Positions 60,006 through 62,708 of a DNA stretch of 64,000 nt are shown here, piece after piece. The stretch's first letter is position 1; each line of letters begins with the position of its first letter. Under the pieces are notes generated by a model. That model ran no database searches and had not been told where the DNA came from. It saw only the letters and a program-made list of their open reading frames with translations. Made by a program: the position numbers and the translations under genes. The stretch lies in contig CALXMV010000010.1 in assembly GCA_944389565.1 (NCBI GenBank), forward strand, positions 1-64,000, given 5' to 3'. The DNA comes from an uncultured Kiritimatiellota bacterium. Its GTDB lineage: Bacteria > Verrucomicrobiota > Kiritimatiellia > RFP12 > DVOR01.

Positions 60006-61421
60006 TCAGGAGAGAACCACGTGGACCTGGATGAGGCGGGAGACGGGGAGGAGGTAGTCGCGGTAGAGCCAGGCGATGTGGCGGGCGGCGGAGGGGGAGA
60101 GGCCCTCGCGCTCGGCGTAGGCCTGGGCGCGGGCGAGGACGCGGGCCTCGACCTCGGCGTTGAGGAGGGCCTGCTCGACGCGCGCGGGGTCGCCGGTGCG
60201 GGCGGCATCGCGAAGGGCGGGGGCCTGCTCAACGCGTTTGCGGGCGATGACGCGGGTGGCGAAGCGGAAGCGGCGGGCGAGGGCGGCGATGGCGTCGGTG
60301 TCGGCGTGGAGGGCCTGGCGGGGGTCGGCGTCCTCGCCGGGGGCGGCGATGTAGGGGACGACGGTGGTGAGGTAGAAGCGGCGGAGGGCGCGGGTCTGCT
60401 CGGTGGCGTCGCCCTTCGCGAAGGCGAGGGCCAGCTCGTCGATGGCGATGGGGGTGACGTGGGCGTAGAGCCCGGGGTTGAGGCGGTAGCGGCGGCGGGC
60501 GGCGAAGGCGCGCAGGAGGCCGGAGTCGATGTCGGCGATCATGGCGCGGAGGCTGGAGAGGGCGGTGGTGCCCGAGTCGTCGGGCACGGAGCTCTGGGTG
60601 GTGATGGTGTAGGAGCCGAGGGTGCGGACCTCGCGGGCGATGCCTTTGAGGGCGCCGAGGATGGCGGCCAGGGGCATGCCGCTGGCGCCGATGAGGAGCT
60701 CGAGGAAAAAGCCGTATTTCCATTTCTCGCCGGGGATGGGGCGGGATTGGATGAAGGTGAGGTCGATGCCGCGCAGGGGGGCGAGGAGGTCGGAGAGGGA
60801 GCCGGGGCGGTCCTCGACGGTGGCGTAGAGGAGGGCGTGGGTGGGGGGGAGGGGGTCGGCGGGGCCGCCGTGGGGGTCGCCGGGGCGGCGGCTCTCGAGG
60901 CGGAAAAAGCGGGTGGTGTTGCCGGAGACGTCCTGGACGTCGGGGCGGCGGAGGACGAGGCCGTAGCGCTTGGCGGTGGTCTCGCCGGCGACGGCGCCGG
61001 CGGCGGGGTCCTCGGCGGCGAGGCGCGCGGCCTCGGCGGTGGAGGCCACGGGGATGAGGGGGAGCCCGGGATAGATGCGGGCCAGGGTGGCGCGGCATTG
61101 GGCGAGGGCCTCGGCCTTGGAGAGAATGCGGGCCAGGGGGGTGGTGAGGTCGCGCGAGAGGAGGTGCTGGTGGACGGGCACGGCGCGGCAGGCGACGGCC
61201 TGGAGCCCAGGGTGGGCCACGAGCAGGTCCATGACCTCGGTGACGGGGCCCTGGGTGCTGTTCTCGAAGGGGACGACGGCGGCGGTCTGGGGGTCGGCGG
61301 CGGCCTTGCGGAAGACCTCGCGCAGGTCGGCGCAGGGGATGGGCCGCTCGCCGGGGAGCGCCATGCGGGTGGCCGCGCGGTGGGAGAAGGTCTCCTCGGG
61401 GCCGAGATAATAGAGGTTCAT
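60006..61421 (-). CDS. pheA: Prephenate dehydratase-ACT fused to a C-terminal chorismate mutase
   Basis: 471 residues, ATG at 61421. Prephenate dehydratase occupies 1-180 (YLGPEETFSHRAA, VPFENSTQGPVTEVMDLL, catalytic GNTTRFF at 168-173). An ACT domain spans about 194-275, with the Phe-sensing type IQSRPIPGEKWKYGFFLEL. From 288 to the end there is a mutase-like all-helical domain: LRAMIADIDSGLLRAFAARR, RRFYLTTVVPYIA, LARRFRFATRVIARKR, NAEVEARVLARAQAYAE, LYRDYLLPVSRLIQV. From memory, these align in order with the yeast Aro7 (AroQ-beta) chorismate mutase rather than the short bacterial AroQ. Together the domains would turn chorismate into phenylpyruvate. Domain order is the reverse of the E. coli P-protein. 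72 bases after aroF, in one operon. Confidence 0.85.
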   Translation of the reverse strand: MNLYYLGPEETFSHRAATRMALPGERPIPCADLREVFRKAAADPQTAAVVPFENSTQGPVTEVMDLLVAHPGLQAVACRAVPVHQHLLSRDLTTPLARILSKAEALAQCRATLARIYPGLPLIPVASTAEAARLAAEDPAAGAVAGETTAKRYGLVLRRPDVQDVSGNTTRFFRLESRRPGDPHGGPADPLPPTHALLYATVEDRPGSLSDLLAPLRGIDLTFIQSRPIPGEKWKYGFFLELLIGASGMPLAAILGALKGIAREVRTLGSYTITTQSSVPDDSGTTALSSLRAMIADIDSGLLRAFAARRRYRLNPGLYAHVTPIAIDELALAFAKGDATEQTRALRRFYLTTVVPYIAAPGEDADPRQALHADTDAIAALARRFRFATRVIARKRVEQAPALRDAARTGDPARVEQALLNAEVEARVLARAQAYAEREGLSPSAARHIAWLYRDYLLPVSRLIQVHVVLS

Positions 61422-61493: not shown

Positions 61494-62516
61494 TCAGCGG
61501 CGCGCCTGGGCGGCGAGCTCGCGCCAGGGGGCGATGGCCTTGAGGTAATCGCCGAAGCTGGCGGAGGGAATCTGCTGGGCGGCGTCGGAGAAGGCGTGCT
61601 TCGGGTCGGGGTGGGTCTCGACGAGGAGGCCGTCGCACCCGGCGCCGAGGGCGGCGCGGGAGAGGGGCACCACGAGCTCGAGCTTGCCGCCGCCATGGGA
61701 GGGGTCGGCCACGATGGGCAGGTGGGTGAGGCGCTTGGTGGCGGCCAGGGAGCCGAGGTCCAGGCAGTTGCGGGTGATGGTCTCGTAGGTGCGGATGCCG
61801 CGCTCGCAGAGGATGACCTCGCGGCAGCCGTTGGCCATGAGGTACTCGGCGCTCTGGAGCCATTCCTCGACGGTACCGGCGAGGCCGCGCTTGAGGATGA
61901 CGGGCTTGCCGGCCTTGCCGAGGCGTTCGAGGAGGTCGTAGTTCTGCGAGTTGCGCGCGCCCACCTGGAAGACGTCGGTGACGTCCATCAGCCCCTCGAT
62001 CTGGGTGGGGCCGGGGACCTCGGTGATGTAGGCGATCTCGGGGAAGTCGCGCTTGACCTCGCGCAGGACGCGGATACCCTCTTCCTTGAGGCCCTGGAAG
62101 TCGTAGGTGGAGGTGCGGGGCTTGTAGACCATCGCGCGGATGACGCGGATGCCCAGGCGCACGAGGTCCTCGACCACGGCGTGGAACTGATCGTAGCTCT
62201 CGACGGCGCACGGCCCGGCGAGCACGGGGATGTTCCCCCCGCCGATCTTCGTGCCCTTGATGTCGATGACGGTGTCCTCCGGCTTGAAGTCGCGGGAGAC
62301 GAGTTTGTATTTCTTGCTCACGTGGATGATCTCTTGGACGGTGGGGAGCGCCTCAAGCTGCTCGACGGTCTGCGGGTTGATCTCGCTGCCGATGCAGGCG
62401 ATGATGGTCTGATCGGAGCCCGTGGTCACGCGCGGCTGATATCGCAGCGAGGTGATCCAGTCGCAGATCGTCTGCACGTCGGCCTGGGTGGCCGTGGGTT
62501 TCATGATGATGATCAT
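61494..62516 (-). CDS. aroF: 3-deoxy-7-phosphoheptulonate (DAHP) synthase, type I-beta
   Basis: 340 residues from the ATG at 62516 (AAGGAA 8 bases upstream). A ferredoxin-like regulatory domain at 1-75 (MIIIMKPTATQADVQTICDW) is followed by the barrel: AGPCAVES, RAMVYKPRTSTYDFQG, VGARNSQNYDLL, ILKRGLAGTVEEWL, LCERGIRTYE, VADPSHGGGK, LLVETHPDP. This is the KDO8PS-related class with an N-terminal FL domain, as in Thermotoga; such enzymes are often feedback-inhibited through that domain. It is the first committed step of aromatic synthesis. A Phe/Tyr-rich leader peptide and attenuator precede it. Confidence 0.95.
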   Translation of the reverse strand: MIIIMKPTATQADVQTICDWITSLRYQPRVTTGSDQTIIACIGSEINPQTVEQLEALPTVQEIIHVSKKYKLVSRDFKPEDTVIDIKGTKIGGGNIPVLAGPCAVESYDQFHAVVEDLVRLGIRVIRAMVYKPRTSTYDFQGLKEEGIRVLREVKRDFPEIAYITEVPGPTQIEGLMDVTDVFQVGARNSQNYDLLERLGKAGKPVILKRGLAGTVEEWLQSAEYLMANGCREVILCERGIRTYETITRNCLDLGSLAATKRLTHLPIVADPSHGGGKLELVVPLSRAALGAGCDGLLVETHPDPKHAFSDAAQQIPSASFGDYLKAIAPWRELAAQARR

Positions 62517-62540
62517 CGGTGTCGTTCCTTCTGTTTGACG

Positions 62541-62571
62541 AAAAGCCGCACCCCCTTTCGAGGAGCGCGGC
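62541..62571 (-). terminator. Attenuator hairpin in the aroF leader
   Basis: On the minus strand GCCGCGCTCC and GGGGGTGCGGC pair (10 bp with two G-T pairs; plus-strand 62562-62571 and 62545-62554), followed by TTTTCG. It lies 31 bases after the leader-peptide stop and about 25 bases before the aroF ATG, where a transcription attenuator would be. Confidence 0.6.
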
Positions 62572-62601
62572 CGTTCGGTAAATCTCCGGTGCTTGGGGCA
62601 A

Positions 62602-62667
62602 TCACTTGGAGGGCCGAGCGGCGCGCGGTCCGTAAAAGTAAAACCCAAACTCAAAGATGCGGTTCAT
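62602..62667 (-). CDS. Phe/Tyr-rich leader peptide of the aroF-pheA operon
   Basis: 21-codon ORF, ATG at 62665-62667 and TGA at 62602-62604, reading MNRIFEFGFYFYGPR and six more residues. Six of residues 5-12 are Phe or Tyr (F-E-F-G-F-Y-F-Y), the two end products of the pathway that follows. This is the composition of ribosome-sensing leader peptides such as PheL and of the Tyr/Phe attenuators. Its start is only about 5 bases from the predicted transcription start, so it has no Shine-Dalgarno. Stalling at the aromatic codons would prevent the hairpin at 62541-62571. Confidence 0.7.
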   Translation of the reverse strand: MNRIFEFGFYFYGPRAARPSK

Positions 62668-62678
62668 GATTGGCTCTT

Positions 62679-62708
62679 ATGATACGCCATCCCCACCCCG
62701 CAAGTCAA
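62679..62708 (-). promoter_or_regulatory. Promoter of the aroF-pheA operon
   Basis: Minus strand TTGACT (62703-62708), 18-base spacer, TATCAT (62679-62684); the start is expected near 62672, just before the leader peptide. Confidence 0.7.

Follow-up and report, generated by a model that had tools for sequence, protein, structure and literature searches.

A predicted Phe/Tyr leader-peptide attenuator preceding aroF-pheA in an uncultured Kiritimatiellota lineage

Introduction

The attenuators of pheA (leader pheL) and pheST in Escherichia coli, represented in Rfam as Phe_leader, combine a Phe-rich leader ORF, a terminator and the logic of ribosome stalling; the pheA leader possesses a Shine-Dalgarno site and senses Phe. 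The ilvBNC leader of Corynebacterium glutamicum is reportedly formed without a ribosome binding site. Attenuation of pheA is also named in PMC1183508, and an attenuator with a Phe-Tyr-Phe leader peptide was predicted for C. glutamicum aroF (cg1129; PMC4046766). In Sinorhizobium meliloti, trpL (rnTrpL) is a leaderless leader ORF located at the 5' end of its transcript and acting by attenuation, and its peptide also acts in trans (PMC7298713). In Streptomyces lividans, leaderless trpL, leuL and ilvL occur in one genome (PMC8079986). Actinobacteria are, then, already known to have leader peptides of the leaderless kind and, ahead of aroF, an F-Y-F leader. A report of 2010 stated that, before its own case from Firmicutes, Proteobacteria and Actinobacteria were the only groups in which such leaders had been demonstrated (PMC2965389). 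Our search of the openly readable full-text literature returned no report of leader-peptide attenuation for Verrucomicrobia or Kiritimatiell- names, which leaves priority unproven.

In this work, we analyzed the region upstream of aroF-pheA in an uncultured gut bacterium of the Kiritimatiellota, from the Kiritimatiellae/Lentisphaera part of the PVC bacteria, for which an earlier note had proposed Phe/Tyr attenuation. The conserved parts of the element and a conserved, mutually exclusive antiterminator support this reading at the level of sequence.

Results

Within the window, that is, the whole 64,000-nucleotide stretch of DNA analyzed, all the attenuator parts and the aroF-pheA genes lie on the minus strand, with the leader region at 62708-62516. 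The aroF gene (61494..62516, ATG at 62516) encodes a type I beta DAHP synthase with an N-terminal FeDX (ferredoxin-like) domain (NCBIfam NF006421 and TIGR01361, above cut-off; Pfam PF00793 and PF18152), and pheA (60006..61421) a prephenate dehydratase with a C-terminal type II chorismate mutase domain (Pfam PF00800 and PF01817). These domain matches agree with the operon envisaged in the earlier note, which leads from DAHP to phenylpyruvate; given these two products, the operon encodes the entry step of the shikimate pathway as well as the commitment of chorismate to prephenate and phenylpyruvate. A pheA homologue is located 3' of aroF in most of the relatives examined.

A consensus scan identified a sigma-70-like promoter on the minus strand, TTGACT (62708-62703) and TATCAT (62684-62679) with an 18-nt spacer, which matches the consensus at 10 of 12 positions (one occurrence, where shuffled versions of the region average 0.0, sd 0.2); the same hexamers had been noticed before with their strand unstated. 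Transcription is predicted to start near 62672, approximately 5 nt 5' of the leader ATG at 62667. The ORF starting there, MNRIFEFGFYFYGPRAARPSK (62602..62667, minus strand; 21 codons plus TGA), appears in the ORF list and reads ATG AAC CGC ATC TTT GAG TTT GGG TTT TAC TTT TAC GGA CCG CGC GCC GCT CGG CCC TCC AAG TGA, with the Phe/Tyr run at 62655-62632. As read from the sequences of the genus loci, no Shine-Dalgarno site was seen before the leader ATG, and the spacing between the -10 hexamer and the ATG is about 7-12 nt, so that the leader is predicted to be leaderless or nearly so. The near-leaderless character claimed previously thus holds as a prediction from sequence but not as a novelty, considering S. 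meliloti trpL, Streptomyces and, reportedly, Corynebacterium ilvB.

The FEFGFYFY segment of this 21-codon ORF, already pointed out in the earlier note, is the sole 8-residue stretch with at least 6 Phe/Tyr among 114,700 stop-free six-frame windows of the 64-kb window. Such a density was absent from 20 first-order Markov sequences of equal length, and at least 5 F/Y per 8 residues appeared in 2 of 800 trials with shuffled upstream regions. The four Phe codons of the leader are all TTT, although the 33 inferred genes of the window (69% GC) use TTT at just 42 of 566 Phe codons. The leaders of the genus use TTT at 55 of 60 Phe codons and TTC at the other 5, TTC being strongly preferred in the genes of the window; this TTT bias could serve either stalling or RNA pairing.

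A search with AroF retrieved an orthologue from 16 of the 17 genomes of the genus, the remaining one being a half-complete assembly; outside the genus, almost every genome of the order that was searched yielded AroF-like proteins. The promoter, the leader with its F/Y run and the terminator hairpin are kept in 16 of the 16 aroF-bearing genomes of the genus: the leaders drift in sequence and length, a U-tailed hairpin is found in every member, and promoter-like hexamers lie 5' of the leader in the 15 other loci. The same three parts were found in 12 further genomes of the order (families f2 and f3; 12 of 12 loci aligned), whose leaders include MNGKRTYFYFSYFRSPDTRFGSAQ. The earlier note had made its proposal depend on the conservation of aromatic codons and terminator in orthologous loci, and both are kept in these 16 genus and 12 order genomes. 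Hairpins do arise by chance (a simple scan is expected to return 0.8 per 2.5 kb), so an F/Y-rich ORF might have come to lie beside an ordinary hairpin without any regulation. However, leader and hairpin persist in 28 genomes while the sequence drifts, and the F/Y densities stand out from the Markov and shuffled controls described above, which makes a chance association exceedingly improbable.

Regarding known RNA elements, Rfam gave no match in the window at the gathering threshold, none meaningful at E-values up to 10 and none in 15 related loci; a T-box, a riboswitch, the Rfam Phe_leader or another Rfam leader were rejected on this result. A covariance model built from the element matched this locus alone in the 2.26 Mb genome, with no second copy elsewhere in it.

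The hairpin with a TTTT tail previously described just before aroF appears in the MFE structure of the leader as a GC-rich predicted intrinsic terminator (62541..62572, minus strand; hairpin 62572-62545, tail 62544-62541), and its pairing is present in 89% of cells of the comparison (16 species of the genus). It was missing from the output of the simple terminator scan because its T-run is short (TTTT only). A mutually exclusive pairing, which the earlier note had suggested looking for by RNA folding, was found with a partner inside the leader ORF that is conserved in the genus and in f2/f3. This partner, segment 2 (GCGCGCCGCUCGG; 62614..62626, minus strand), is the antiterminator strand placed just 3' of the Phe/Tyr codons. 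The second antiterminator strand, segment 3 (CCGAACGGCCGCGC; 62565..62578, minus strand), overlaps the terminator 5' arm. The duplex of segment 2 with 62578-62565 has an energy of -22.7 kcal/mol versus -14.8 for the shuffled segment.

In the genus, segments 2 and 3 pair in 94% of cells (16 species) versus 24-42% in slid controls, and in families f2/f3 the corresponding strands, CGGACACACGGUUC and GAACCGCGUGUCCG, pair in 88% of cells versus 13-37%. The antiterminator strands of the genus and of f2/f3 are wholly different in sequence, but complementarity is retained. Duplex energies are clearly better than those of shuffled segments in most species, the exceptions being L040, L043, L044, L046 and L019 (55-101 of 500 shuffles). 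Covariation is modest in the genus, with two pairs showing double-sided change and 8 to 71 of 500 shuffles reaching the observed values, and exhibits no excess over shuffles in f2/f3; the structural case leans, for this reason, mainly on the complementarity across families. Double-sided changes from C-G to U-A are seen in L041 and L042, and in L032 and L033 a G lost from segment 3 is accompanied by a C-to-G change in segment 2, resulting in a bulge-free helix.

The leader stop codon is just 85 nt from aroF, and some actinobacterial leader peptides function without terminators (PMC1262725). On these grounds, the main effect of the leader ORF could be on translation (by coupling, by reinitiation or through access to the mRNA at aroF) instead of on transcription termination. 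Against this, every member of the genus has the U-tailed hairpin, whose 5' arm is common to the antiterminator, and the Shine-Dalgarno-like AAGGA of aroF (62526..62530, minus strand, read from the sequence) falls outside both stems; we consider a mainly translational role quite unlikely.

A shift of reading frame across segment 2 in L044 and L022 alters the C-terminal part of the peptide, and the RNA remains complementary, which suggests that segment 2 is kept as RNA and the F/Y run as codons. These loci also bear on the idea that the nascent leader peptide, like TnaC with Trp, detects free Phe/Tyr and arrests the ribosome, an idea favored by the conservation of the leader ORF in the genus. 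All arrest peptides that we know of require fixed residues, whereas the order, number and spacing of F/Y differ among species and the C-terminal change in L044 and L022 leaves the pairing intact. We thus regard an arrest peptide as very improbable.

A fixed-column pairing measure understated pairing at register shifts, and folding as a function of ribosome position was used instead. Transcripts ended just 3' of the terminator 5' arm were folded with the RNA blocked, codon by codon, up to the leading edge of the ribosome; the calculation is an equilibrium one and assumes a footprint of 9 nt past the A-site codon. With the ribosome stalled at the most favorable F/Y site, the terminator 5' arm was paired with segment 2 with a mean probability of 0.90 (28 species). 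With the ribosome at the stop codon the value was 0.00 in 28 of 28 species, a figure that follows from the blocking of the segment by construction, so that what the calculation tests is geometry. Segment 2 sits 3' of the F/Y run and 5' of the stop codon in all 28 species. In the ribosome-free transcript ending at the terminator 5' arm, the antiterminator reached a mean of 0.79 and was favored in most species. For the full-length RNA at equilibrium, the terminator prevails in most species, and the antiterminator would consequently have to act kinetically. A classical three-hairpin trp-type leader (1:2 protector, 2:3, 3:4) has a 1:2 hairpin that imposes termination on untranslated RNA; for such a default, the two calculations point in opposite directions here.

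Leaders of other kinds were encountered in more distant relatives. Within the order, families f3 and f6 possess a second AroF type, which is often preceded by a leader of its own, e.g. MNRYFYGFYFYFTGLMGRARLP. Before this AroF type, the leaders of L179, L184, L190, L193 and L195 mix Phe, Tyr and Trp codons, e.g. MIKTFKFAWYYYFGFTAGAARAF, so that Phe, Tyr and Trp may all be sensed by a single attenuator. Trp-containing leaders of the order were also considered as a mark of aroF without pheA; this was rejected, as in most of these cases, too, a pheA-like gene comes next. In family f30, which belongs to a different order of the class, most loci carry a leader that ends in FRSPDARSGSAR or a similar sequence, and no aroF leader stood out in the other sampled families of the class. 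Two loci of family f5 (L030 and L031) lack the attenuator, and their aroF, which begins 7 nt after TATAAT, is predicted to be a leaderless gene. F/Y-rich aroF leaders were also found in Clostridia MAGs (L051, L052, L055-L057, L061-L070, L073, L075 and L079), several of them with a Shine-Dalgarno-like site. Among these leaders, a conserved GGUUUGUGCGUGA-like end spans the stop codon and, judged by eye, looks complementary to the terminator arm.

Within the genus, nine of the ten genomes with trpE have a W-L-W (or W-F-W) leader ORF before it, usually RWLWRGDSPE, together with U-tailed hairpins. In L120 (G000:C38; set L112-L121), the trpE leader ORF is MQRMVCHVYGRWLWRGDSPERD, about 300 nt 5' of trpE and with two tandem U-tailed hairpins. 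An automatic script gave a weak signal for a trp-leader antiterminator and usually picked the second of the two tandem hairpins. Upstream of leuA, a Leu-rich leader ORF lies at a distance of about 190-220 nt (L168, G000:C42; L158-L172), and in the loci read the hairpin 3' of it, GGCCUCCGCGGGU...GGCGGGGGCC, shows strong conservation. The leaders of trpE (Trp) and leuA (Leu) probably resemble the Phe/Tyr scheme of the same genus. No leader was found before pheS, nor a convincing one upstream of hisG and ilvB in the genus.

Discussion

The sequence and its folding contain what is expected of an attenuator: a run of codons for the end products, a terminator between the ORF and aroF, and an exclusive antiterminator that depends on ribosome position. 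These parts, their conservation and their mutually exclusive pairing are established by the sequence and its comparison among relatives, and they indicate that the aroF-pheA operon is very probably controlled by a ribosome-mediated transcription attenuator. We infer that the leader ORF is translated, that ribosomes stall in it and that termination responds to the amino acids, as follows. RNA polymerase would start approximately 5 nt 5' of the leader AUG, which would let the ribosome load at the 5' end without a Shine-Dalgarno site. A shortage of charged tRNA-Phe or tRNA-Tyr would make the ribosome stall within FEFGFYFY and leave GCGCGCCGCUCGG free to pair with the terminator 5' arm; with this antiterminator formed, transcription would continue into aroF-pheA. 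When both charged tRNAs are plentiful, the ribosome would reach the stop codon (codon 22) and cover GCGCGCCGCUCGG, whereupon the terminator hairpin would fold and transcription would stop.

This mechanism is classical, textbook ribosome-mediated attenuation, and what appears to be without a found report is its occurrence in this PVC lineage. As in E. coli pheA, a Phe-rich leader would control a chorismate mutase/prephenate dehydratase gene; unlike pheL, the leader described here is predicted to be near-leaderless, has both Phe and Tyr codons, carries the antiterminator strand inside the ORF and has no Rfam match. With S. meliloti trpL it shares the predicted position of the ORF at the transcript 5' end, although that leader senses Trp in an alphaproteobacterium and this one would sense Phe/Tyr in a PVC lineage. 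The C. glutamicum aroF leader is similar at the peptide and gene level, being an F-Y-F-type leader before a DAHP synthase gene; C. glutamicum is, however, an Actinobacterium, and the available extract does not mention pheA in connection with that leader (PMC4046766). Several leaderless leader peptides per genome, here suggested for Phe/Tyr, Trp and Leu, are also a trait of S. lividans, for which the extract of the report mentions no Phe/Tyr leader (PMC8079986). It is tempting to speculate, if only tentatively and as a rather doubtful possibility, that the lineage has a pared-down class of attenuator of its own, with the antiterminator strand residing in a leaderless leader ORF. The terminator would then form only if a ribosome actively translates as far as the stop codon, transcripts without translation would be read through, opposite to the default in trp, and one genome would use this arrangement for Phe/Tyr, Trp and Leu.

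Altogether, the locus would extend peptide-sensing attenuation to an uncultured PVC lineage and adds an RNA element missing from Rfam. The relatives provide a natural series in which RNA pairing and codon run evolve separately, and the genus seems to use the scheme for Phe/Tyr and probably also for Trp and Leu.
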